A DNA stretch of 64,000 nt, from positions 1-64,000 of the forward strand of contig NZ_VAUP01000005.1 in assembly GCF_005871085.1 (NCBI RefSeq), read 5' to 3'. Positions 1,057 to 38,161 of this stretch are shown here, piece by piece; position 1 is the stretch's first letter, and each line of letters opens with the position of its first letter. This stretch comes from Xanthobacter autotrophicus (GTDB lineage: Bacteria; Pseudomonadota; Alphaproteobacteria; Rhizobiales; Xanthobacteraceae). The translations under genes and the position numbers were made by a program. Under the pieces are notes generated by a model, which was not told the DNA's origin, made no database searches, and saw nothing but the letters and a program-made list of their open reading frames with translations.

Positions 1057-2196
1057 ATGGCGCGGATGAAAATGGAACACGGGCTCTGGCTCGTCACGCT
1101 GGCCGCCACGGCGATGAGCATCGCCGCGTTCGCCGTCGAGGCGCAGGCCGGCGATGGCCCCCCCGCGCCAGCGCCGGCCCCGATACCGGTGGAGATCGCC
1201 ACCGCCGATCGGCGCGATGTCCCCATCTTCCTCACCGACCTCGGGACGGTCGAGCCGTATAATCAGGTCACGATCCGCTCACGCGTGGACGGTGCCCTGC
1301 AACAAGTTCTGTTCAAGGAGGGGAACGACGTGCGCCAGGGCGATCTCCTCGCGGAGATCGATCCTCGCACCTTCCAGGCATCCCTCGACCAGGCCAGGGC
1401 GCGGCTCGATCAGGACACGGCGAGCCTCGCCAACGCCAGGCTCATCCTGAACCGGGATGCCCAGCTGGTGGCGCGCGATTTCGTCAGCGTAGAGACCGCG
1501 GATACCCAGCGCAGCACCGTTGCCCAGCTCGAAGCGCAGGTCGAGCAGGACAAGGCCCTGATCGTGACGGCGGAGACGGAACTCTCCTACACCCGCATCC
1601 TGGCGCCTATCGACGGGCGCGCGGGCCTGCGCCTCGTCGATGTGGGCAACATCGTTCATGCGAGCGATCCGGGGGGGCTGGTGGTCATCAACCAGGTGAA
1701 CCCCATCGCTGTCATCTCCACCCTCCCGGAGCGGGACGTTCCCGCCATCCGTGCCGCCCTGGCGGCAGGGCCGGTGGAGGTCGAGGCCCTATCGCGGGAG
1801 GACGGCACGGTTCTGGACATCGGAACCGTCCAGCTCATGGACAATGCCATCGACCCGAAGAGCGGCACCCTGAAGCTGAAGTCGGTCTTTCCCAACGCCG
1901 GGGACCAGCTCTGGCCGGGCCAGTTCATCGACGCCAAGGTGCACGTGACGACGCTGAAGGGCGTCGTCACGGTGCCGGCCGGCGCCATCCAGCGCGGCCC
2001 CGACGGTACGTTCGTCTACCAGGTGGCGCCGGACCAGACCGTGTCGCCCGCCGCCGTCAGAACCGGCCCGATCTCAGAGGGCGTCGCCGTGATCGAGAGC
2101 GGGCTCGCAGAAGGCGCGCGCGTGGTTAGCGCCGGCCAATACCGTCTGTCTGCCGGCGCTCGCGTCGCCGATGTACCCTCCTCTCAAGCCCAGTGA
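1057..2196 (+). CDS. RND efflux periplasmic adaptor (membrane fusion protein), MdtA-like
   Basis: A protein of 379 residues. The N-terminus has a hydrophobic segment (residues 10-28) ending in an AQA signal-peptidase-like site, so it is exported and probably periplasmic. It then shows the standard adaptor order: a first barrel-sandwich strand with TVEPYNQVTIRSRVDGALQQ (about 68-87), a coiled-coil hairpin of Q- and A-rich helices (about 105-175), the second lipoyl half with APIDGRAGLRLVDVGNIV, then beta-barrel and membrane-proximal segments. Such adaptors link an inner-membrane RND pump to an outer-membrane channel. Its stop codon overlaps a possible GTG start of the pump gene (GTGA), so the two are translated together. 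The ATG at 1057 has only a weak GAAAG upstream; internal ATGs at residues 4 and 6 are alternatives. Confidence 0.9.
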   Translation: MARMKMEHGLWLVTLAATAMSIAAFAVEAQAGDGPPAPAPAPIPVEIATADRRDVPIFLTDLGTVEPYNQVTIRSRVDGALQQVLFKEGNDVRQGDLLAEIDPRTFQASLDQARARLDQDTASLANARLILNRDAQLVARDFVSVETADTQRSTVAQLEAQVEQDKALIVTAETELSYTRILAPIDGRAGLRLVDVGNIVHASDPGGLVVINQVNPIAVISTLPERDVPAIRAALAAGPVEVEALSREDGTVLDIGTVQLMDNAIDPKSGTLKLKSVFPNAGDQLWPGQFIDAKVHVTTLKGVVTVPAGAIQRGPDGTFVYQVAPDQTVSPAAVRTGPISEGVAVIESGLAEGARVVSAGQYRLSAGARVADVPSSQAQ

Positions 2197-2201
2197 TCCC
2201 C

Positions 2202-5200
2202 ATGGCCGATACTGCAGCGCGGGCGTCGCTCTCCTCCTGGTTCGTCCGGCATCCCATCGGCACCTCGCTGCTGATGGCGGGCCTGCTGGCCCTCGGCATC
2301 GCGGCATTCCCCAAGCTGCCGGTCGCGCCCCTGCCGGAGGTGGACTTCCCGACCCTCCAGGTCTCCACTTCCCTGCCCGGTGCCAGCCCGCAGATCATCG
2401 CCGCCTCGGTGACCCAGCCGCTGGAGCGGCAGTTCGGCGAAATCCCCGGCGTGGCGCAGATGACATCGATCTCGACCCTCGGCAGCAGCGCCATCACGTT
2501 GCAGTTCAATCTCGACGTGAACATCAATGCCGCCGCCGAGCTGGTGCAGACCGCGATCAATGCGGCGGGCGGGCAACTGCCGGCCAACCTGCCCGCGCCG
2601 CCCACCTATCGCGAGGTGAACCCGGCCGATCCGCCCATCCTGGTGCTGGGCCTGACATCGCGGACCCTGCCCATCATCCAGGTGGACGACTACGCGGAGA
2701 ACGTGCTGGAGCAGCATATCAGCCAGATCGCCGGGGTCGGGCAGGTGCTCGTCTTCGGCCAGCAGAAGCCATCCGTCCGGATCCAGGTGGACCCGGTGAA
2801 AGTGGCGAACCTCGGCCTGTCCCTGGAGGACCTGCGGCAGGCCATCGTGACCAATACGGTGAACGGCCCGAAGGGGACGGTGCAGGGGCGCACGCGCACC
2901 TTCACCCTGCTCGACAACGACCAGATCACCAGCGCGGGACCCTGGCTCGACGCCGTTCTCGCCTATCGCAACGGCGCGCCGGTGCGCGTGCGCGATCTCG
3001 GCACCGCCGTCGATGCCCCGGAGAATACGCAACTGGCGGCCTGGGCCGATGGCGAGCGGGCCATCATCCTGCCCGTGTTCAAGCTGCCGGGCGCCAACGT
3101 GGTGGAGACCGTGGAGCAGATCAAGGCGCAACTGCCCGGCCTTCTTGCCGGTGCGCCCGCGGGCATCGAGCTGAAGATCCTCAGCGACCGCACCGCCACC
3201 ATCCGCGCCTCGGTTGCCGACGTGGAGAAGACGCTCGCCATCACGGTGATCCTGGTGGTGGCGGTCATCTTCGTGTTCCTGCGCAGCCTGTGGGCGACGG
3301 TGATCCCGTCGGTGGCTGTGCCGCTCGCCGTGATCGGCACGTTCGCGGTCATGCTGGCGTTGGGCTACAGCCTGGACAATCTCTCGCTGATGGGCCTCAG
3401 CATCGCCGTGGGCTTCGTGGTGGACGATGCCATCGTGATGCTCGAAAACATCGAGCGGCACCTCGAAATGGGCAAGACACCGCTCGAGGCGGCGCTGGAC
3501 GGCTCGGCCGAGATCGGATTCACCATCCTGTCCATCAGCCTCTCGCTGATCGCCGTATTCATCCCGCTGCTGTTCATGGGCGGGCTGGTGGGGCGCCTGT
3601 TCCGGGAATTCGCGGTCACGGTCGCCGTGACCATCGTCATGTCGGCCTTCGTCTCGCTCGCACTCACCCCGACCCTGTGCGCCCTGTTCCTCAAGCCGAA
3701 GGGCGAGGTGCAGCATGGCCGGCTCTATCGGGTTGCCGAGCGCTGCTTCGACACGCTGCTGGCCGGCTACCGTCGCACCCTGGACCTGGCGCTGGCCCAC
3801 CAGCGCGCCACGCTCGCCGTGTTCCTCATCGCCCTCGCCGCGACGGCAGCGCTGTTCGTGGCGATACCGAAAGGCTTCTTCCCACAGCAGGATACGGGCT
3901 TGATCCTCGGGGTGTCCGAGGCGGCACAGGACCTTTCCTTCGCCGAGATGGCGCTGAAGCAGCAGGCGCTTGCCGCGGTGGTGGCACGGGATCCGGACGT
4001 CTATTCCGTCTCCAGCACCATCGGCGCTACGGCGGGCCAGACCATGAATGACGGCCGCATGTTCATCACCCTGAAGCCGCGGGAGGAGCGCACGGCGTCC
4101 GCCTTCGAAATCATCCGCCGGCTGGAGAAGCAGCTTGCGAAGGTGGAGGGGGCGGCGCTGTTCCTCCAGGCCGCGCAAGATCTCAACGTGGGCGGGCGCC
4201 TGGCCCGCACCCAATTCCAGTACACCTTGCAGGACGGCAATATCGACGAGCTGAACGCCTTCGCCCCCAGGCTGCTCGCGAAGATGAAGACCCTGCCGGA
4301 ACTGACCGGCGTCGCCACCGACCAGCAGGCGTCCGGCGCAACGCTGACGCTCACCATCGACCGTGATCAGGCGGCCCGTTTCGGCATCAGCCCCACGCTG
4401 ATCGACGACACGCTGTACGATGCCTTCGGCCAGCGCCAGGTGACGCAATACTTCACCCAGCTCAACAGCTACCACGTCATCCTGGAACTGTTGCCCAGCC
4501 TGCAGACCTCACCCCATGCCCTCGAACAGATCTACATCAAGTCGCCGCTGACCGGCGAACAGGTGCCGCTCAGCGTCCTGGCCCGATCGACGTCACTGCC
4601 CACCGCCCCACTGGCGATCAATCATCAGTCGCAGTTTCCTTCGGTGACGCTGTCCTTCAACCTGGCGCCCGGCGCGGCGCTGGGGGATGCGGTGGCCGCG
4701 ATCCATCGTGCCGAGACCGAGATCGGCAAGCCGACCACCCTCACCGGCGCCTTCCAGGGCAATGCTTCGGCGTTCCAGTCGTCGCTTGCCAGCGAGCCCT
4801 ATCTGGTGGCCGCTGCCCTCCTCGTCATCTATGTCATCCTCGGTGTGCTCTACGAGAGCTATGTGCACCCGTTGACCATCCTGTCCACGCTGCCATCGGC
4901 CGGCCTCGGCGCGCTCGCGACGCTGTGGGCGTTCGGCTTCGATTTCTCGATCATCGCGCTGATCGGCATCATCCTTCTCATCGGCATCGTGAAGAAGAAC
5001 GGGATCATGATCGTGGACTTCGCCATCGAGCGTCAGCGCCTGGAAGGCCTGTCGCCTCAGGAGGCGATCCGCGAGGCGTGCCTGCTGCGCTTCCGGCCGA
5101 TCCTCATGACCACCATGGCCGCCCTGCTCGCGGGCGTGCCGCTCATGCTGGGGCACGGCACCGGTTCGGAACTGCGTCAGCCGCTGGGCTATGCCATCGT

Positions 5201-5330
5201 CGGCGGCCTGCTGGTGAGCCAGTTGCTGACACTCTACACCACGCCGGTTATCTATCTCTGGCTCGACCGCCTCGGAGCGCACCGCCCGAAGGCGACGAGG
5301 CAGTCGCCCACCGGAACACAAGGGACGTAG
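2202..5330 (+). CDS. RND-family multidrug efflux permease, MdtB/MdtC-like
   Basis: About 1042 residues, the normal length for a hydrophobe/amphiphile RND pump. It has an N-terminal transmembrane helix after FVRHPIGTSLLMAGLLALG, a large periplasmic loop, the TM4 proton-relay motif GFVVDDAIVMLENIERH with the paired aspartates near residue 408, a second N-terminal-like repeat (SPNP-type loop at the middle) and the C-terminal helices with GIVKKNGIMIVDFAI. It should exchange protons for amphiphilic drugs, with the adaptor encoded just upstream. I chose ATG 2202; an in-frame GTG at 2193 overlapping the adaptor stop is equally possible and would add three residues. No outer-membrane factor follows, so a TolC-type channel must come from elsewhere. 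The VDD relay argues against a heavy-metal pump. Confidence 0.92.
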   Translation: MADTAARASLSSWFVRHPIGTSLLMAGLLALGIAAFPKLPVAPLPEVDFPTLQVSTSLPGASPQIIAASVTQPLERQFGEIPGVAQMTSISTLGSSAITLQFNLDVNINAAAELVQTAINAAGGQLPANLPAPPTYREVNPADPPILVLGLTSRTLPIIQVDDYAENVLEQHISQIAGVGQVLVFGQQKPSVRIQVDPVKVANLGLSLEDLRQAIVTNTVNGPKGTVQGRTRTFTLLDNDQITSAGPWLDAVLAYRNGAPVRVRDLGTAVDAPENTQLAAWADGERAIILPVFKLPGANVVETVEQIKAQLPGLLAGAPAGIELKILSDRTATIRASVADVEKTLAITVILVVAVIFVFLRSLWATVIPSVAVPLAVIGTFAVMLALGYSLDNLSLMGLSIAVGFVVDDAIVMLENIERHLEMGKTPLEAALDGSAEIGFTILSISLSLIAVFIPLLFMGGLVGRLFREFAVTVAVTIVMSAFVSLALTPTLCALFLKPKGEVQHGRLYRVAERCFDTLLAGYRRTLDLALAHQRATLAVFLIALAATAALFVAIPKGFFPQQDTGLILGVSEAAQDLSFAEMALKQQALAAVVARDPDVYSVSSTIGATAGQTMNDGRMFITLKPREERTASAFEIIRRLEKQLAKVEGAALFLQAAQDLNVGGRLARTQFQYTLQDGNIDELNAFAPRLLAKMKTLPELTGVATDQQASGATLTLTIDRDQAARFGISPTLIDDTLYDAFGQRQVTQYFTQLNSYHVILELLPSLQTSPHALEQIYIKSPLTGEQVPLSVLARSTSLPTAPLAINHQSQFPSVTLSFNLAPGAALGDAVAAIHRAETEIGKPTTLTGAFQGNASAFQSSLASEPYLVAAALLVIYVILGVLYESYVHPLTILSTLPSAGLGALATLWAFGFDFSIIALIGIILLIGIVKKNGIMIVDFAIERQRLEGLSPQEAIREACLLRFRPILMTTMAALLAGVPLMLGHGTGSELRQPLGYAIVGGLLVSQLLTLYTTPVIYLWLDRLGAHRPKATRQSPTGTQGT

Positions 5331-29385: not shown

Positions 29386-30174
29386 TCAGGGCGTGGTGCC
29401 GGCGAGAAAACGCTCCATGGGCATGAGCCGCCAGACCACCGGGCATGGCGCACGGACGGCGGCGGCCAGAAGATAGTCGGGTCCAAGGTCGCATTGATGC
29501 AGGTGCCAGTCGCCCGCGGCGCCCAGATGTCCGGCCAGATGGGCCACAGCCGGCGCTTCCTGGCCAGCGGGGCCTGATCCGGCAAGCTGGAAGGACACGT
29601 CGTTGGGCGGCAGCGACAGGCCCAGGCCCACCGCCTTGGCGAAGGCCTCGCGCAGCGTCCAGTAAGCGAAGGCCCTGGGTCTGGCGGCCGCGCCGGCGGC
29701 GGACAGATCCGCCACCTCCGCATCGGCCATGATCATGGCCATCGCCTCCAGGGGAACCTCGCGGACGTGGGCCTCCACATCGACGCCCACCAGGGGCGTG
29801 CCAGCGATGGCGACGGCCACGGCCGTGCCGGAATGGGACAGGCTGAACCCGGGCCCTGCCCCGGCCTGGGAAGGCCCGGCAAGGAACGGGCCGGCGAGGA
29901 AGGGCTTGCCGCTCGGATCCCGGGCGAAAGCCAGATCCTGCGGATCGACCCCCAGGCAGCGACCGAGGGCCAGCCGCTTCACCGCGTGCGCCAGAAGAAA
30001 AAGGTCCCGGTCGCGGGGAAAGGCGAAGGCCCGCCGGCGCGCCTCCTCCTCCGGACTGAGGGACGCCATCAAGCGCACGCGCATGTCCGGCGCCAGCAGG
30101 TCGGTGAAGCCGTGCAGGATCAGCACCTCGCCGGACGCCGGCCCGTGATCGAACGCGCCATCCCGCGCCCCCAT
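29386..30174 (-). CDS. 4'-phosphopantetheinyl transferase, Sfp type
   Basis: 262 residues, the size of Sfp/Gsp transferases. Features seen: DPSGKPFLAG (about residues 86-95), FSLSHSGTAVAVAI (about 108-121), the magnesium-binding VGVDVEAH (about 128-135) and the second metal motif in WTLREAFAKAVGLGLSLPP (about 170), where Arg replaces the usual Lys of WTxKEA. It would move the phosphopantetheine arm from CoA to the carrier domains of the PKS/NRPS proteins encoded upstream in the same direction. Between GKP and the SHS motif there is a small repeated insertion (FLAGPFLAGP). The start at 30174 has GGAG upstream; longer open frames lack one. It is the last gene of the cluster. Confidence 0.9.
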   Translation of the reverse strand: MGARDGAFDHGPASGEVLILHGFTDLLAPDMRVRLMASLSPEEEARRRAFAFPRDRDLFLLAHAVKRLALGRCLGVDPQDLAFARDPSGKPFLAGPFLAGPSQAGAGPGFSLSHSGTAVAVAIAGTPLVGVDVEAHVREVPLEAMAMIMADAEVADLSAAGAAARPRAFAYWTLREAFAKAVGLGLSLPPNDVSFQLAGSGPAGQEAPAVAHLAGHLGAAGDWHLHQCDLGPDYLLAAAVRAPCPVVWRLMPMERFLAGTTP

Positions 30175-30208
30175 CGCAATCTCCCCCTGCCGCGTGCCGG
30201 CTGTGCCC

Positions 30209-31126
30209 TCACGACACCGAGCGGATGAAGGCGATGATCGCCTGCTGGGCGGGCGCGTCCCACAACAGGGGGGCGTGGCCCTGGTCCGCCACCTCATGGA
30301 TCACAAGGCCCGGGTGATGGGCCGCCATGTCCGCCATGGTCTTCGCCGACAGCACGTCCGACAGCGCGCCGCGCACCACCATGGCGGGCACATGGGCAAG
30401 GGCATCGAAGCCGGGCCACATGTCCGGCAGGGGCTTGCCGGGATCGATGGCCTTGAACGACTCGCCCAGCGCCGGATCATAGGAGAGGCACGGCTTGCCG
30501 CCGGCATCGCCATGGATCTGGCGGGCAAAGCGCTCCCACTCCGCATCGCTCAGGGCCGGGAACATGAAGCCCTGGCTTGCCTTCAGGTCGGCGACGGCCT
30601 CCGGCCAGCTCGCCGGCAGCGGCGCGCCCACATAGCCGCCGATGCGCACGATGCCGGCCACATCCACGAACGGGCCGATGTCGTTGAAGATGGCGCCGGC
30701 GAACAGCTGCGGCCGCAGGATCGCCAGCACGAACATGACGAGGCCGCCCCGCGAGGTGCCGAACAGCACCGCCCGGGAGATGCCGAGCACGGCAAGGCCG
30801 GCCAGGATGTCCTGCGCCTCCTGGATCGGCGTGTAGGTGGTGTAGGGCGCATGGCCCGAGCCGCCGCGCCCGCGATAATCGAACGCCACCACGCGGGTGG
30901 GATGGGCGCCATCGGCCACCAGCGCCTGCGCCAGGGCCTCATAATCCCGCGAATTGCGGGTGAGGCCGGACAGCAGCACCACCGGCAGGGGCGCCGCGGG
31001 GTCCCCCCATTCGCGCCCCAGCAAGGCGACACCGTCCGCGCTCGGATAGGCGAAAAAGCGCGCCGGGGCCGTCCTCAACTGGTCTTCGCCGGCCTGTCCG
31101 GCCGGTTCTGTTTCGTGCTGGTCCAT
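30209..31126 (-). CDS. Alpha/beta-fold hydrolase
   Basis: 305 residues of the alpha/beta hydrolase fold without signal peptide. The oxyanion-side segment is LLSGLTRNSRDY, the FDYRGRGGSGHA loop follows, and the nucleophile elbow is FGTSRGG with Ser125. The acid is probably the Asp in GALSDVLSA (about 253) and the base the His in DQGHAPLL (about 284). It lies in the same transcription direction as the PKS/NRPS genes, 34 bases before the phosphopantetheinyl transferase. It could hydrolyse or tailor an ester or lactone of the product. It lacks the GxSxG spacing and length of classic RedJ/GrsT type II thioesterases, so an editing role is not assumed. Confidence 0.8.
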   Translation of the reverse strand: MDQHETEPAGQAGEDQLRTAPARFFAYPSADGVALLGREWGDPAAPLPVVLLSGLTRNSRDYEALAQALVADGAHPTRVVAFDYRGRGGSGHAPYTTYTPIQEAQDILAGLAVLGISRAVLFGTSRGGLVMFVLAILRPQLFAGAIFNDIGPFVDVAGIVRIGGYVGAPLPASWPEAVADLKASQGFMFPALSDAEWERFARQIHGDAGGKPCLSYDPALGESFKAIDPGKPLPDMWPGFDALAHVPAMVVRGALSDVLSAKTMADMAAHHPGLVIHEVADQGHAPLLWDAPAQQAIIAFIRSVS

Positions 31127-31229: not shown

Positions 31230-32216
31230 TCACGAGACGGGCGCGGCGGGCGCCTTCACGGCGGCGGCCGAATCGTTCCAGCCGTGGGCGTTGAGCCAGT
31301 CCACGGTGGTGTCCAGCGCCGCATTGGTCTCCGGCGCGTCCCAGGCCGGCCCGGTGAACACCGGCGGATCGACGCGCCGGAAGCGCGAGCCCAGAAGCTG
31401 GGCGCACTGCGCGCTGGTGGCAGCGGCGCCGGCCTGCAGGAACAGGTCCACCAGCACCAACGGATTGAACGGATCCAGCAGCCACTGGCGATAGCCCCAG
31501 TCGGCGCTGCCCTCGGAGAGGCCGGGCGACAGATAGCGGGACTGGCCGGCGAGGTTGCGCGGCGTTCCGACGGACAGCAGCGCCATGTCCTCCAATGCCT
31601 TCTGCTGGGCCAGCGCGCCGGTGATGGCCGTCAGCGCCGGATTGTTGGAGGCCACCGCCCCATCCACATAGGCGGGACCGGTCTGCGCCCCGCTCTGGTA
31701 GATGGGATATTGCAGCGGCATGGCCATGGTGCGCAGCACCACGTCCGCGATCAGCTCCACCCGGCCGAGATCGCCGGGAAAATTGGAGAAGGTGCGCGGC
31801 AGCCAGCTGCGCTGCCCGTCGGAAAGGGCATTGTCGAGCTGCACCGTATTGACCAGCACCGGCCGCTTCACGTCGGCGAGGATGGCGCCGGGGCCGAACA
31901 CCTCGTCGCAGAACGCCTTGATGCGCCCCGTGGTCATGGCGGCATTGTTGCCCAGCACGGTGCCGGCGATGGACCACGGCGTCTGGCTCTCGCGCACCTC
32001 GTCATCGAAGCGCAGCACCGCCTCGAAGGCGAGGACCGGATCGTCGAACCACGCCAGCAGCAAGGCGTTGACGGCGCCGTTCGAGGTGCCGGCGAACAGG
32101 TCGATCTGGCGCAGGACGCTGAAGCCGAGCACCTCGGCCCGGCGCTCCAGCGTCGAGAGGAACACGCCGGCCTTGCCGCCGTTGCCGCCGTCCAAAGACA
32201 GGATGCGATACGTCAT
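31230..32216 (-). CDS. Patatin-like phospholipase/acyl hydrolase
   Basis: 328 residues of the patatin family. The glycine-rich anion loop is LDGGNGGKAG (residues 8-17), the nucleophile elbow is FAGTSNGAV with Ser45, and the catalytic aspartate is in AYVDGAVASNNPAL (about 190). These form the Ser-Asp dyad of lipid acyl hydrolases. The start codon overlaps the stop of the NRPS-D gene as ATGA, so it is translationally coupled to the assembly line, which is an unusual partner for a patatin. It may release, transfer or trim a fatty acyl chain of the product, or supply fatty acids. No signal peptide is seen. The exact substrate is unknown. Confidence 0.85.
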   Translation of the reverse strand: MTYRILSLDGGNGGKAGVFLSTLERRAEVLGFSVLRQIDLFAGTSNGAVNALLLAWFDDPVLAFEAVLRFDDEVRESQTPWSIAGTVLGNNAAMTTGRIKAFCDEVFGPGAILADVKRPVLVNTVQLDNALSDGQRSWLPRTFSNFPGDLGRVELIADVVLRTMAMPLQYPIYQSGAQTGPAYVDGAVASNNPALTAITGALAQQKALEDMALLSVGTPRNLAGQSRYLSPGLSEGSADWGYRQWLLDPFNPLVLVDLFLQAGAAATSAQCAQLLGSRFRRVDPPVFTGPAWDAPETNAALDTTVDWLNAHGWNDSAAAVKAPAAPVS

Positions 32217-35200
32217 ACCCCTTCTCCCTTTCGTGCTCCGGCCTCACCATCGAGAAACGGCTTCAAGCGGGCGGCGAGTGCCGCCGCCCCCTCGGGATCG
32301 AGAATGATCGACATGTGGTTGCCCGCAAGATCCACGCGCACCACACCGCCAGCAACATGGGTCCGCAACTCCGCTTCCAGCGGATCGTCCGCCCCCTGCG
32401 AGGAGCCCGCGCGGAACAGCACCGCACCTGCGGTGATGCGGGACGGACAATAGCGGTATCCCATCGTCGTGTTGAGATTGAAGATGCGCAGGGAACGCCC
32501 GACCCCCGCCCAGAAGGCGCGATCGAGCCTGAGGTCCCGGAAGCTGGCCGGCAGGCTCAGCCCGATGAGGCGCGCCAGGGCCGTAAGGTCGCCATAGGAG
32601 CGCGGCAGGCGCACCTGCGTCACGAACGTGCCCATGCGCCACAGTGCCTTCACATGGCGCAGGGGATCGCGCGAGCGCACGAAATTCTCGGTTTCCATCA
32701 CCGCGCAGTCGAGGAAGGCCAGCGTCGCCACGCGCTCGCCGCTCTCCTCCAGCAGCCGCGCCATCTCGAACGCCACCGGCCCGCCGGAGGACCATGCGGC
32801 GACATGGTAGGGCCCCGAGGGCTGGCGCACCCGCATCGCTTCCACATAGAGACGCGCCATCTCCTCCACGGTGGACAAAGGCGGCGCGTCGTCGATCAGC
32901 CCCGGCGCCTGGAAGCCATAGAGCGGCTGGTCGCGGCCCAGATGTTCGGCGAGGAACAGGTAGCACCAAGGGCTGCCACCGGCCGGATGGACACAGAACA
33001 AAGGCGGCCGCGCGCCTTCCGGCTGCACCGGCACCAGGCAGTCGGGCAGCGGCCGGCGATCCGCCTCGGCCGGCGCGTTGGCGGCGATCCAACGGGCCAT
33101 GCCGCGCAGGGTCGGGGCCTCGAACAGGATGCGCAGGGGCAGGTCCACCCCGAACGCCTCGCGCACCCGGTGGACGAGGCCGGCCGCCACCAGCGAATGG
33201 CCACCGGAGGTGAAGAAATTGTCCTCCGGCGCGATACTCGGGCGCTTCAGCAGCGCGCTCCAGATGGCGGCCAGTTGCGCCTCCACCCCGTCCTGCCCGC
33301 CCTCGACGGCCAGCGCCGCGCCGTCATGGCGCGCCAGGGCGTCAGTGTCGATCGAGCCGTCCGCCGACCGGGGCAAGGCATCAAGCACGCGCAGGGGACA
33401 GGGGATAGGCGTGCCGAAGCGGTCGGGCATATCGTCGTTGGCGGGCGCGGCCAGCACGGCGCCGGAGCGAGGCACCACGAAGCCCGCCAGTCCCTGAAGA
33501 GGCCGCACCGGCTGGCGCACCCGCGCCCTGACAAATGGCGAGGCGCCATCGAGCCCGATGGACAAAGGCGAAGTCCCCAGCGCCAGCGCCGCCTCAAGAC
33601 TGGCGAGGGCGTCCTCCACGCGCAGGGTGCGGAAGCCGCGTGCGGCGGCAAATTCCGCCGCCCCGGCATCGCCGCCCGCCGGCGCACTCATGCCGAGGTC
33701 GGCCCAGCGGCTCCAATTAAGGCACAGCACGCGGGTTCCCTCCCCCACCATCCCCGCCAGCGCGGCATTGGCGGCGGCATAGGCCCCGGCCTCGGCGCCG
33801 CCGAAGATGGCATTCACCGACGACCACAGCACGACGAACCCGCCAGGCCGGCGCCCCATGGCCTCGATCACCGCCCGCGCGCCCACCGCCTTCGGCGCGA
33901 AGGCGGCCGCCAGTCCCGCCACCGTCTCCTCCGCCAGTGCTCCGGCCGGGGCGAGGCCGGCGAGGTGGAAGGCGCCGTCTAGGGGGCCGCCGAACTGCGC
34001 CTCCGCCGCGCGGATGGCGGCTTCCAGCGCGTCGGCGTCGGTGACATCCACGGCGCGGGTGAGCAGGTCCGGGCCATCCTGTTCGCCGTCCGCAGCGGAG
34101 CGCCCGACCACGAGCAGCCTGGCCCGGCAGCGCGCTGCCAGATGTTTGATCAGCGCGCGCCCGATGCCGCCGGTGCCGCCGGTGATGAGATAACGCCCGC
34201 CGGTCTTCAACCGGAGCGCGGGATCGCGGGGCGCGCGGCTTGGGTCCACCGCCTCCAGCCGGGGCACGAAGCGGCCGGCGGGCCGCAGCGCCACTTCGGC
34301 CTCGCCATCCGGTGCGCGGATTTCGCGGGCCAGCCGGGCCATCAGGTCGGGGGCGGCATCCTGGTCGCTGACATGGATCTGCCGGCAAGAGAGGTCCGGC
34401 ATCTCCTGCGCGGCGGTGCGCAGCAGGCCGCGCAGGGCGGCGCGGGCCGGGTCGATCCCCTCCCCGCTCCCGGCCCCGCCCCGCGTCACCACCGTGAGCG
34501 CCACCGACCGCCCCTCCCGCCCGCGCCCCATGTGCTGGAGCAAAGCGACGCTGGCCGCCAGCTCGGAGCCGGCTCGCGCCCGGAACGCATCCAGCGTCTC
34601 GCCGGCGGGAACAGGTGCCAGCGGGCGCAAATCCACCACCATGTCGGCCCACGCACCGGGCGATGCACCGACGAGGGCCGACTGAACGACCCCATCCACA
34701 TCGGCACCCGCCGTCTCGACCGGTACCCCCTCCCGTTCCAGCGCCTGCGCCAGCGCGGCGGCGATCTCGGCCGGACCGCCCAGAAGCACCACGCCGCGCG
34801 GCGGCGCCGGCTCCGCTTCCAGATCGCGCCGCACCCAGCTTTCGGCATGGAACCACGCCGGCACCGTGCGCGTGCGCGCGCCCTGCGCCAGTCGCGCCAT
34901 CAACTGGGCGCGCAGCTGCATGCGCTGGATCTTGCCGCTGGTGGTCTTGGGAAAATCCGGCTGGGGGATGGCGATCACATGGGCCGGGGCGATGCCAAGC
35001 TGGCCCGTCACCGCCGCGCGGATGGCGTCGGCCACCACCGGTGCGTCCGCCTCCGGGCGGGGGGAGAAGAACAGGGCCAGCGCCTCGCTGCCCGTGGCCG
35101 CATCCGGCACGGCGCAGGCCGCGGCAAACGTGGGCTGGACGCCGGCCACCGCGTTCACCAGATCCTCGATCTCGTAGCAGTAGAAATTGGCGCCGTTGAC

Positions 35201-38161
35201 GATGATCAGCTCTTTCTCGCGGCCGGTCAGGGCAAGATTGCCGTCGCGGATGAAGCCGAGGTCGCCGCTGTTGAACCAGCCGTTGCCCACGAAGGCCTCG
35301 GCGTTGGCGGCCTCGTTGCGCAGATAGCCCGGCGTGATCACGCCGCCCTTGATCTGGAACCGCCCGATGACCCCCTCCGGCACCAATGCGCCGGCACCAT
35401 CCACGATGCGGATGGCCACCCCCGGCACCGGCGGGCCGAGCTTGATGAAGCTCGCCGCCTCGGGCGCGTCCGCCGCCACCGGCCGCAGCCGGCCGCCGAG
35501 GGAGGCCTTGTCGATCCAATGCACTGAGTGGGCGGAATCGAACCCGGTCTCATAGGTCATGCAGGTGCAGGCCTCGGCCATGCCGAAGGCCGGCTGCATC
35601 GCCTGCGCCCGGATGCCGAAGGGCGCCGTGAGGGCGAGAAATTCGGCGATCACCGGCAGCGTCGCCTGCTCCCCCGCATTCATGAGGGTGCGCACATGGC
35701 CGAGGGCGAAGCGGCGCCCGCCCCCCTGCCGCAGCGTGTCCGACACCAGCTTGAAGCCGAAATTGGGCGACCAGCTGCGGGTGACGCCGTGGCGGTCCAT
35801 GAGGTCGAGCCACAGCAGCGGATCGGCCAGCACCGCCGCCGTCTCCACCTGGATCTGGGTCATTCCCAGATACACGTCGCGCAGATGCCAGGTGAGCATG
35901 GGCACCACATGGTCCATAGGCAGCCAGTTCAGCGCCACGTCGTCGGCGCCATAGAAGTTGACGCGCATGGTCGCATGGATGTGCGCCACCACCCCGCCAT
36001 GGGTGATCTGGATACATTTGGGCGTGCCGGTGCTGCCGGAGCTGAGCTGGAGGAACAGCACGTCCCCGGGCGCTGCCGCATGCACGGTTTCGAGGGGCGC
36101 GTGGGCCGTGAGTTGTTCCAGTGCCAGCACCTGGGGCGCGGCATCGGCGAAGCGCGCCAGCCCCGCGAGCGGCCCCGCAAGCGCGGCCGGCGCCAGCACC
36201 ACCGGGCGGCCCAGCAATTCCCAGGCGTTGATGAGCTTGGCCACCAGCGCCGTGCGTTCTGCGAAGGTGGCGCTCACCGCCACCGTCACCGGCTGCACGC
36301 CGGCCAGCACGCAGCCCCAGAAGGCGGGCAGATGCGCCCGCAGGTCCGGCACCTGCAGGATGGCGGTGTCACCGGGCTCAAGCCCCGCCGCCTTGAGCCC
36401 GCCGGCGATGCGCCGCGCCTCCTGAAGCAGCACAGCATAAGTGAGCCGCCGGGCCGGTCCCGCCCCTTCGAACACGATGCCGGTGTCGCCGGCCCGCTCC
36501 GCCGTGTGCAGCAGGGCATCGGTGAGGGTGCGGGGGGCGTCGGCCGGCAGCTCCAACGGCCCGCCATCCGCCAGCGCCCATGGCCCTTCGGAGCCGGGCG
36601 GCGGCTCGGGCACGACCGTCGCGGGGGGCGGGAGCGGCGCCACCGGCGGCAGCGTGACCAATGCCGCCTCCGGCGCCAGCGCGCGCGTCACCACGGCGGC
36701 TTCCGCGACACCGTCCATGCGCTCCAGAAGCGCACGCCACTGCGCGGCGGCGAAGCCATCGGGCACCGGCAGGCGGGCCAGCGCCGCGTCGTCCACCGCC
36801 CCAGCCTCGGTGAGCGGCAATGCCGCCACCGCGACGAAGGCCGCCGGCCGCTGCCAGATCGGCAGCACACGTTCGGCATGGGGCGCCCAGTCCTGCGGCG
36901 TCGCATGGCCGTCCGGCACGACGTAGGCGACGAGGCGGGGCGCGCCCGCCGTATCCATGCGTTCCAGAACCCGGCAATCGGCGATGCCGGCATGGCCACG
37001 CAGCTCCGCCTCCACGGTAGCGAGGCCGAAGCGCAGGCCGCCTGCCTCCACGCGCCGCCCGCCATCGGGCCGGCGCTCGAAGCGGCCATCGGCGCGCTGC
37101 CGTGCCCGCGCGCCCGGCGTCACCTCCGATCGTCCCGTGGCAGGGGTCACCGCGAGGCTGCCGACACCGCCCAGCGGCACTTTCTGGCCATGGCGATCGA
37201 GGACGCGCAGGGGCGCACCTATCAGCGGCGCGCCCTCGCCCACCGGCTGCGCCAGCACCGGGCCTCCGGCCTCGGCGACCTGCCACAGGGTGAAGGCATG
37301 AGCCCCCGCCGGGCCGGCCATGCCGGGGGGCGGATCGCCATCGAGGAAGACCAGCCGCGGCGCGGTTTCATCCAGCAGCGGCTGGGCGGCGGGTGGCAGC
37401 AGCGCGACTGTCGCCCCCGTGGTGCGGGCCAGCGCCGCCAACGCGGCCGGCTCGCGCTCCACCGGCGCCAGCGCCACCGTCGCACCCATCGTCAGCGGCC
37501 AGAACAGGCTGGTGACGGCCGATATGTCGTGGAGGGAGGCAGCGCACAGGCTCACGTCCGCACCAGTGAGAGGAAAGGCCGCCCGCAGCCACGCCAGCCG
37601 CTCCGCCACCGACCGCTCCGGCACGGCAAGGAGCGCCCGCTCCGGTGCGATCCGGGCGAAGGCGGATGGGTCGGCGGCGGTGCCAGCCTCTGCAAGACTT
37701 ACCTCGACCAGCCTTGCCTCAGCAGCCCCCTCCTGCGTGAGCACGAACCGGACAGATGCCCGCAAGCGGTCGAGCCGCGCCGACGCATCCCCCGGCTCCA
37801 GCGGCAGGAAAGCGCAGCCCGTCTTCAGGATGCCGATGAGGCCGGCCACCAGCGCCGGGCCGCGCGCGAAGGCGAGCCCCACCACATCCCCCGGCCGTGC
37901 GCCCTGGCCACGCAGGGCATCGGCCCACTGCGCCGCGCGGGCGTTCAATGCGCCATAGGTCAGCCCCGCTCCACCATGGGACACCGCCACCGCGTCCGGC
38001 GTGAGCCCCGCCTGGCGCTCGAACAGGGGCCCGAAGCCCTCGGCCGGGGCGACGGCGCGGCCTTTCCCCTCCGCCATCAGCCGCGCCAGCAAGGCGCGCT
38101 TCTGGGCGGCAGAAAGGCCGGTGCCGGCCCCGGCTGGGCCATCGTCCCGGGCGATGCTCAT
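32213..38161 (-). CDS. NRPS-D: terminal assembly-line protein, degenerate A - AMP ligase - KR - PCP - TE
   Basis: 1982 residues. Order seen: (1) residues about 40-490, an NRPS adenylation-like domain that keeps LTYGALNAR and ILKTGCAFLPLEP but lacks the ATP loop, the YGPTE motif and the terminal lysine (AGAVDDAAL in place of NGKVDRxAL), so it is probably inactive; (2) about 530-1120, a second adenylating domain of the acyl-AMP ligase kind, with LQLSSGSTGTPKCIQITH near 710, FGMAEA and the intact TSGKIQRMQLR; (3) about 1190-1500, a complete ketoreductase with YLITGGTGGIGRAL (near 1324), SSVNAIFGG and AYAAANAAL; (4) a PCP with FFTSGGHSLVAAGL (near 1655); (5) a type I thioesterase with the Ser loop VAAWSSGGPVAFEM (near 1790), the Asp in AFLDC and His in AGNHMS. 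It probably receives the chain from the C domain ending PKS-C and releases the product. GAGGCAGG precedes the start. Confidence 0.9.
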   Translation of the reverse strand: MSIARDDGPAGAGTGLSAAQKRALLARLMAEGKGRAVAPAEGFGPLFERQAGLTPDAVAVSHGGAGLTYGALNARAAQWADALRGQGARPGDVVGLAFARGPALVAGLIGILKTGCAFLPLEPGDASARLDRLRASVRFVLTQEGAAEARLVEVSLAEAGTAADPSAFARIAPERALLAVPERSVAERLAWLRAAFPLTGADVSLCAASLHDISAVTSLFWPLTMGATVALAPVEREPAALAALARTTGATVALLPPAAQPLLDETAPRLVFLDGDPPPGMAGPAGAHAFTLWQVAEAGGPVLAQPVGEGAPLIGAPLRVLDRHGQKVPLGGVGSLAVTPATGRSEVTPGARARQRADGRFERRPDGGRRVEAGGLRFGLATVEAELRGHAGIADCRVLERMDTAGAPRLVAYVVPDGHATPQDWAPHAERVLPIWQRPAAFVAVAALPLTEAGAVDDAALARLPVPDGFAAAQWRALLERMDGVAEAAVVTRALAPEAALVTLPPVAPLPPPATVVPEPPPGSEGPWALADGGPLELPADAPRTLTDALLHTAERAGDTGIVFEGAGPARRLTYAVLLQEARRIAGGLKAAGLEPGDTAILQVPDLRAHLPAFWGCVLAGVQPVTVAVSATFAERTALVAKLINAWELLGRPVVLAPAALAGPLAGLARFADAAPQVLALEQLTAHAPLETVHAAAPGDVLFLQLSSGSTGTPKCIQITHGGVVAHIHATMRVNFYGADDVALNWLPMDHVVPMLTWHLRDVYLGMTQIQVETAAVLADPLLWLDLMDRHGVTRSWSPNFGFKLVSDTLRQGGGRRFALGHVRTLMNAGEQATLPVIAEFLALTAPFGIRAQAMQPAFGMAEACTCMTYETGFDSAHSVHWIDKASLGGRLRPVAADAPEAASFIKLGPPVPGVAIRIVDGAGALVPEGVIGRFQIKGGVITPGYLRNEAANAEAFVGNGWFNSGDLGFIRDGNLALTGREKELIIVNGANFYCYEIEDLVNAVAGVQPTFAAACAVPDAATGSEALALFFSPRPEADAPVVADAIRAAVTGQLGIAPAHVIAIPQPDFPKTTSGKIQRMQLRAQLMARLAQGARTRTVPAWFHAESWVRRDLEAEPAPPRGVVLLGGPAEIAAALAQALEREGVPVETAGADVDGVVQSALVGASPGAWADMVVDLRPLAPVPAGETLDAFRARAGSELAASVALLQHMGRGREGRSVALTVVTRGGAGSGEGIDPARAALRGLLRTAAQEMPDLSCRQIHVSDQDAAPDLMARLAREIRAPDGEAEVALRPAGRFVPRLEAVDPSRAPRDPALRLKTGGRYLITGGTGGIGRALIKHLAARCRARLLVVGRSAADGEQDGPDLLTRAVDVTDADALEAAIRAAEAQFGGPLDGAFHLAGLAPAGALAEETVAGLAAAFAPKAVGARAVIEAMGRRPGGFVVLWSSVNAIFGGAEAGAYAAANAALAGMVGEGTRVLCLNWSRWADLGMSAPAGGDAGAAEFAAARGFRTLRVEDALASLEAALALGTSPLSIGLDGASPFVRARVRQPVRPLQGLAGFVVPRSGAVLAAPANDDMPDRFGTPIPCPLRVLDALPRSADGSIDTDALARHDGAALAVEGGQDGVEAQLAAIWSALLKRPSIAPEDNFFTSGGHSLVAAGLVHRVREAFGVDLPLRILFEAPTLRGMARWIAANAPAEADRRPLPDCLVPVQPEGARPPLFCVHPAGGSPWCYLFLAEHLGRDQPLYGFQAPGLIDDAPPLSTVEEMARLYVEAMRVRQPSGPYHVAAWSSGGPVAFEMARLLEESGERVATLAFLDCAVMETENFVRSRDPLRHVKALWRMGTFVTQVRLPRSYGDLTALARLIGLSLPASFRDLRLDRAFWAGVGRSLRIFNLNTTMGYRYCPSRITAGAVLFRAGSSQGADDPLEAELRTHVAGGVVRVDLAGNHMSIILDPEGAAALAARLKPFLDGEAGARKGEGV

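Follow-up and report, generated by a model that had tools for sequence, protein, structure and literature searches.

Introduction

AulA of auriculamide biosynthesis in Herpetosiphon aurantiacus has the domain order A1-A2-KR-PCP, in which a ketoreductase (KR) lies between the second of two adenylation (A) domains and the carrier (PCP). AulA A1 misses required residues and is dispensable; AulA A2 activates alpha-keto acids, including 3-methyl-2-oxovalerate; the protein takes several keto acids about equally and one hydroxy acid also well (PMC5238615). For A domains in tandem a single precedent is named, PyrG of pyridomycin biosynthesis, whose A2 is listed for 3-methyl-2-oxovalerate (PMC5238615). 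The solved StsA chain is described as an A-KR-T initiation module (PMC11253843), and a valinomycin synthetase module is likewise described as A-KR-PCP with the same A-domain family (PMC8068249). Cereulide synthetase is another system with A-KR-PCP modules of this kind.

The role of a further label, CAL, has been left as a question by the account of hectoramide B biosynthesis in PMC10949194. HcaB is described there with C, A, CAL, KR and PCP domains, an order inferred from the text, and is proposed to form a hydroxy-acid ester. Its first A domain keeps Asp235 and is read by the authors as the active keto-acid domain, with CAL as perhaps nonfunctional; CAL domains similar to that of HcaB are noted for cryptophycin, hectochlorin and didemnin (PMC10949194).

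Here we analyse a window of 64,000 nucleotides from Xanthobacter autotrophicus (contig NZ_VAUP01000005.1). We are fairly confident that one of its proteins, P0001, closes a hybrid PKS-NRPS line as a module on which a keto acid would be loaded and reduced, esterified by the condensation (C) domain of the preceding protein, P0002, and released by a thioesterase (TE).

Results

Architecture of P0001

P0001 is encoded by a single open reading frame (32213..38161, minus strand) and has 1982 aa in the order pseudo-A, keto-acid A, KR, PCP and TE. The domain search proposed in the initial annotation, run with Pfam, matched an A remnant, AMP-binding, KR, PP-binding and Thioesterase; the order given in that annotation stands, and only its label "acyl-AMP ligase" for the second adenylating domain does not. 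AMP-binding matches three stretches, best at residues 553-947, and AMP-binding_C matches two, the better of which (383-454) belongs to the first A domain. Specifically, the pseudo-A, defined by HMM and motifs, comprises a core and its own Asub remnant (residues 41-470; 36752..38041, minus strand). The alpha-keto-acid A domain follows at residues 541-1092 (34886..36541, minus strand), assigned from its match to 6ulx, a tree and its pocket, with V752 at the Asp235 place and G860-M861.

The KR is of the PKS type, with structural and catalytic subdomains (residues 1095-1535; 33557..34879, minus strand; Pfam KR at 1322-1488, 3e-30). It sits between A and PCP and retains, by motif reading, the TGGTGGIG loop, K1424, S1448, Y1461 and the Asn of YAAAN, in agreement with the cofactor loop, Ser, Tyr and Asn noted initially. 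The PCP (residues 1629-1700; 33062..33277, minus strand; PP-binding at 1629-1692, 4.3e-16) keeps S1656, and the type I TE (residues 1715-1982; 32216..33019, minus strand; Pfam Thioesterase at 1719-1836, 6.9e-26) keeps AWSSGG at 1789 and H1949. No KS or AT was matched in P0001 by Pfam, so that its domain content is not that of a PKS module.

The assembly line that leads to P0001

P0001 is the last synthetase gene of a minus-strand line that starts beyond the end of the window. The preceding module, P0002 (38200..46011, minus strand), has the Pfam order KS-AT-DH-ER-KR-ACP-C, and 38 bases separate its gene from that of P0001. The C domain at the end of P0002 (38302..39666, minus strand; Condensation 2.7e-95; motif HHIVTDG at residue 2257) is the presumed chain-joining partner of P0001. 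Because this C domain ends P0002, P0001 does not lack a preceding C domain as a starter module would.

Further upstream in the line lie P0003 (46008..54122), P0004 (54126..59621; KS-AT-DH-KR-ACP) and P0005 (59632..63975), all on the minus strand. P0003 is C-A-PCP-Cy-A-PCP with a domain inside each A: an FkbM-type methyltransferase in the first (residues 990-1178) and a nitroreductase-type domain in the second, after Cy (residues 2337-2508). These inserts fit a methylated unit and a thiazole or oxazole. P0005 is a PKS module with an AT fragment, DH, ER, KR and ACP; its KS-containing start is upstream of the window on the contig, together with P0006, an AMP ligase-ACP protein.

An aromatic amino acid lyase gene, P0009, lies near the start of the line (L036 8444-9979; contig C6 68444-69979). 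Its best NCBIfam model is tyrosine ammonia-lyase, matched under the cut-off of that model. P0009 is present at 92% or more in four of 15 genomes, and these four all carry P0001 or, in one case, its pieces. The lyase and the AMP ligase-ACP protein beside the line's start suggest a cinnamate- or coumarate-type starter. By eye, genes further downstream look like sugar metabolism, and an apparent RND-type efflux pair, a membrane-fusion protein and a transporter, is located at 1057-5330 of the window (plus strand).

Family assignment of the second adenylating domain

Against all PDB chains, the second A domain of P0001 scores highest with StsA (6ulx, 416 bits; 6ulw, 412 bits), followed by McyG (334 bits), 7r7g, which is labelled polyketide synthase (155 bits), and 3pbk (141 bits), the best entry labelled fatty acyl-adenylate ligase. 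StsA I306, G414 and M415 align with P0001 V752, G860 and M861. Gly-Met is described as a keto-acid feature of StsA, in which the corresponding change of Met to Pro abolished adenylation (PMC11253843). Amino-acid A domains have Gly-Pro at this place, and all 24 rows compared from the keto-acid A family have Gly-Met. The motif is not exclusive to keto-acid domains: three of five rows resembling fatty acyl-AMP ligases (FAAL-like rows, so labelled here from motif and family) carry YGMAE. We therefore rejected Gly-Met as a lone mark of keto-acid domains. The FGMAEA likeness remarked on initially is thus real, and does not make the domain an acyl-AMP ligase.

Two further features separate P0001 from the FAAL-like rows. 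The Asp235 place is occupied by the aliphatic V752 in P0001 and by Asp in all five FAAL-like rows, and the HDxGLxG stretch of these five rows is HVVPMLT in P0001. Consistent with this, a tree of 51 A domains splits 44 family rows (P0001 and 43 relatives) from the five FAAL-like and two amino-acid A domains with support of 100/99, in a tree with long branches and a bootstrap that is not fully settled. The incomplete L023 is left out of the tree; L030, L031 and L001, copies of other rows, and L044, a copy of L038, were dropped, and in stretch L037 the search covered the domains of P0001-P0003. A structure alignment leaves out L024, L041, L020 and L043 for a split frame or a cut or missing KR. 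A KR match in frame is absent from five of the 44 tree rows (L020, L043, L068, L071 and L073).

A reading of the domain as a genuine fatty acyl-AMP ligase, with a fatty acid as its substrate and the KR acting on a beta-keto group, would agree with the NCBIfam ranking, in which models for a fatty-acid-CoA ligase and for a fatty acyl-AMP ligase come right after an NRPS/PKS model, all far below their cut-offs (298.9 of 572, 249.3 of 600). It would also agree with the shared YGMAE and with the CAL annotation given to such domains in PMC10949194. We consider this reading highly improbable in view of the PDB scores, the HVVPMLT stretch and the separation in the tree, and FAAL identity was rejected on these grounds and on the V752 region. 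Because Gly-Met is shared with FAAL-like rows, it is family, tree and the V752 region that decide the matter: as judged from sequence, the second adenylating domain belongs to the keto-acid A family, and not to the acyl-AMP ligases as the initial annotation had it.

The first A domain and an apparent split pseudo-Asub

The first A domain of P0001 is recognised by HMM in its core (E 3e-25) and in both parts of its subdomain (subN 2e-9, subC 4e-7). None of the A3, A5, A7, A8 and A10 patterns was found in it, and by motif the domain is dead. The same holds for its relatives, with the five patterns absent in all 12 upstream stretches of at least 450 aa (10 of them distinct). In L014, L015, L022, L025-L028 and L038 the pseudo-A core is gone, and the remaining 170-210 aa or so mostly match Asub, weakly so in L025 and L028. 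The residual stretch is 314-414 aa long in L017, L018, L019 and L021, and 45 aa in L041.

In the StsA structure, the A-KR cassette reportedly sits between two halves of a pseudo-Asub. P0001 has candidate counterparts of both halves, distinct from the Asub remnant of its pseudo-A: an N-half at residues about 477-502 (36656..36733, minus strand; E 0.05 as a single sequence) and a C-half within residues 1536-1628 (33278..33556, minus strand; subC HMM E 2e-5). The region preceding the A domain, as a profile of 24 rows, matches Asub columns 416-436 when compared with the Asub N-half (E 2.4e-4, probability 44%), and matches more weakly when compared with the whole A domain (E 0.0029, 11%). The region following the KR, as a profile of 19 rows, matches Asub columns 442-518 (E 1e-7), and its match abuts that of the N-half. 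Control profile comparisons with swapped halves, the core and the KR region gave E 0.1 or worse. As single sequences, nine of 25 distinct modules with a searchable stretch match the Asub C-half at E 0.01 or better. The A-KR cassette of P0001 thus appears to interrupt a pseudo-Asub, with strong support for the C-half and modest support for the N-half.

The substrate pocket suggests a small keto acid

The pocket of P0001 reads V-V..T and C-T-C. A C-A-KR-PCP protein of the Tistrella didemnin line, which lies between a C-A-PCP-C-A-PCP protein and the next C-A-PCP frame, has the pocket V-V..T / C-T-V and falls in the same 26-row clade as P0001 (95/93). A later pseudo-A/A-KR-PCP protein of that line, followed by a KS, has the pocket V-G..M / C-S-A. 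From gene order and the structure of didemnin, we take the first of these modules to be the lactate module and the second to be the Hip module. The review text in PMC5577590 confirms no more than the presence of two Gln modules on DidA and the predictions for Hip and Ist. The P0001 pocket is not identical to the lactate-type one and differs at two places (A to E and C to V).

Pyruvate, which would be reduced to lactate, is our best guess for the acid, at somewhat less than an even chance, because the pocket class and clade are shared with the module placed for lactate in didemnin and the identified neighbours would not obviously make a special keto acid. The latter are the patatin, an alpha/beta hydrolase, a phosphopantetheinyl transferase (29386..30297, minus strand; PF01648 1.7e-12), a type II thioesterase, the lyase and the ligase. 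The guess is uncertain because of the two pocket differences. These differences leave close to an even chance that the same module uses a larger or functionalised alpha-keto acid instead, or is loaded directly with an alpha-hydroxy acid, as the breadth of AulA would also allow (PMC5238615). Bulkier V for G307 and C for A421 would better suit a small side chain, and the intact KR favours a keto substrate.

Presumed chain joining by the P0002 C domain

The C domain of P0002 would have to pass the chain to a hydroxyl. In a tree of 61 C domains, keto and amino labels need 10 changes, compared with a mean of 18.3 for shuffled labels, and none of 500 shuffles is as low; a single ester-forming clade was not found among the 61. 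The labels cluster and yet form no ester clade, so the C domain does not prove ester formation. This result leaves some room for another kind of chain transfer, or for a module that acts in trans, with no ester made by the upstream C domain. We regard this as improbable, considering the position of C at the end of P0002, the short gap between the two genes and the conservation of the pair: a KS-AT-DH-ER-...-C protein followed by an A-KR-PCP-TE protein is kept in L009, L010, L011 and L048.

Conservation and terminal position

The P0001 architecture is complete in four of 14 genomes of the genus, counting that of the window, and a fifth has two pieces. The three other complete Xanthobacter copies are 85-89% identical to that of the window, and a Chelatococcus copy is 55% identical over its best segment and 58% over residues 466-1640. 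Because the architecture is kept in genus relatives and in Chelatococcus, it is not a chance arrangement. The second A domain is kept at 62-92% identity across Xanthobacter, Chelatococcus and L048. This conservation, together with the intact motifs of the second A, KR, PCP and TE, makes it very unlikely that the module is vestigial or skipped, with release from an earlier carrier and P0001 mainly a provider of TE, even though the dead first A domain shows that parts of the protein do decay.

The end-of-line position, offered initially as a distinction of this module, is real and recurs elsewhere: in Chelatococcus L011 and in L048 (same order), in the Acidobacteriota MAG L052 and in the Beggiatoa MAG L023. 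TE directly follows PCP in seven of the 44 family tree rows, and also in the incomplete Beggiatoa L023. Six of these seven rows are one lineage (four Xanthobacter, Chelatococcus and L048), and the seventh is Acidobacteriota L052.

A census with an A-domain profile gave at least two of 397 genomes in the order of the window, one being that of the window (threshold 1e-120), and at least one of 398 in its phylum, again that of the window only (1e-120). The corresponding figures are at least three of 183 for the order of Minicystis (1e-150), at least four of 47 for the order of Tengunoibacter (1e-150) and at least 11 of 400 for the phylum of Tengunoibacter (1e-110). All are lower bounds: the counts are of centres, and no more than 3 to 30 candidates per genome were scored in the initial screen. 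Records with the pocket subclass presumably represent Alpha-, Beta- and Gammaproteobacteria, Myxococcota, Acidobacteriota, Chloroflexota and Verrucomicrobia.

Patatin-like genes beside the modules

A gene for a patatin-like hydrolase (31230..32216, minus strand; PF01734 2.9e-27) overlaps with its start the stop of P0001 and is a possible partner. A patatin-like gene also adjoins the module in L009, L010, L011 and L048, and L013, L016, L052 and L069 have patatins close to modules that belong to the same clade. Altogether, patatins occur at eight of 24 loci of the V-V-T/CTC clade and at none of 17 other family loci (Fisher 0.013, kinship ignored). Four of the eight loci in this count belong to a single lineage, and seven of these patatins served as seeds for the search model. 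When the Pfam patatin model was applied to eight genomes instead, a match lay within ~12 kb of the module in five, which were picked in the knowledge that a patatin was there, and in none of the other three. In one Acidobacteriota MAG, eight of 14 matches to the Pfam model are within ~12 kb of two of its four family A domains. A second patatin-like gene lies ~8 kb beyond the start of the line (L036 15477-16553, minus strand).

It is conceivable, but doubtful, that V-V-T/CTC modules form a lactate-type-ester subclass for hybrid products and that the adjoining patatins are dedicated depsi-ester enzymes. If so, the patatin would cut or trans-esterify the terminal hydroxy-acid ester, and the terminal module would add a removable cap. 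An ester-cutting role of the patatin is a guess. Such a scheme would be a prodrug scheme parallel to that of DidK, described as the didemnin esterase (PMC10811503), with an unrelated fold. We regard the patatin association as a lead.

Discussion

We propose the following sequence of events for P0001. The first A domain would be idle, a dead remnant. The second would convert an alpha-keto acid, probably a small one such as pyruvate, to the acyl-AMP and transfer it to the PCP, where the KR would reduce the keto group to a hydroxyl. The C domain of P0002 would then pass the chain from the P0002 ACP to this PCP-bound hydroxyl and form an ester, and the TE would free either an acid that ends in an ester-linked hydroxy acid or a lactone. 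For activation and reduction we argue by analogy with characterised relatives; for the ester bond, the form of release and the identity of the acid we argue from assembly-line logic only. The main idea of the initial annotation, namely keto-acid loading, reduction on the PCP, a chain delivered by the upstream C domain and release by TE, is well supported by homology.

The family assignment bears on other modules. Annotation tools also make the reading that is corrected here, the "CAL" or acyl-AMP-ligase label in A-CAL-KR-PCP modules. We think it very probable that the domain so labelled in these modules is the one that works as the keto-acid A domain, and that the dead domain is the one before it. 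For HcaB-type modules this suggests an assignment opposite to the published one, with CAL as the keto-acid A domain and the preceding A domain dead, and it offers a likely answer to the question of the CAL role in depsipeptide modules as put in PMC10949194. HcaB, compared here by description only, has the same set of domains before PCP as P0001. The pocket gives a prediction for the subclass, a small keto acid and perhaps pyruvate.

Most of the differences from known cases that the initial annotation drew do not hold: Gly-Met, the place of the KR and the end position all recur. The KR separate from the ligase, for instance, was taken as a difference, and the same order is seen in StsA and AulA. 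StsA shares with P0001 the A-domain family, Gly-Met and a KR between A and PCP. The alignment of the A-KR-PCP part of P0001 with StsA 6ulw is colinear and falls into two blocks (chain 77-706 and 822-1312). Only ~98 residues of the StsA chain precede its A-domain match, which leaves no room for a full pseudo-A core, and the chain is an initiation module, unlike the terminal P0001. The Tistrella didemnin pseudo-A/A-KR-PCP module that we place for Hip has its C domain on the preceding protein, as in P0001. Both Tistrella A-KR-PCP modules are mid-line and are followed by C or KS, whereas P0001 is terminal.

AulA, whose gene was identified because its product has exactly 1818 aa and because the order A1-A2-KR-PCP, C-A-PCP, KS-AT-ACP-TE matches PMC5238615, is the counterpart with a dead first A domain. 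In one blastp alignment, P0001 67-1693 aligns colinearly with AulA 32-1786 (30%, 642 bits). With its dead A1 before A2 and this colinearity, P0001 belongs to the tandem A1-A2-KR-PCP subset. A characterised homologue with the same domain order, which the initial annotation had named as evidence against its idea, therefore exists in part: AulA has been characterised biochemically as A1-A2-KR-PCP, but has no TE. AulA also differs from P0001 in its place as the published first module, in the low identity and in its pocket, which is of the V-G-M/SETSSG type compared with V-V-T/AEACTC in P0001.

Beside aulA, we observed an NRPS ending in C (L074 1-4104 and L079 13526-20000) that stops ~60 bases before the aulA start and is itself preceded by a KS-AT-DH-KR protein. 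It may be that the four genes published as the auriculamide cluster are not all of it, or that a longer chain is cut to give auriculamide. In P0001, the order of dead first A, keto-acid A and KR before the PCP is that already known from AulA; what is added here are terminal examples with a TE.
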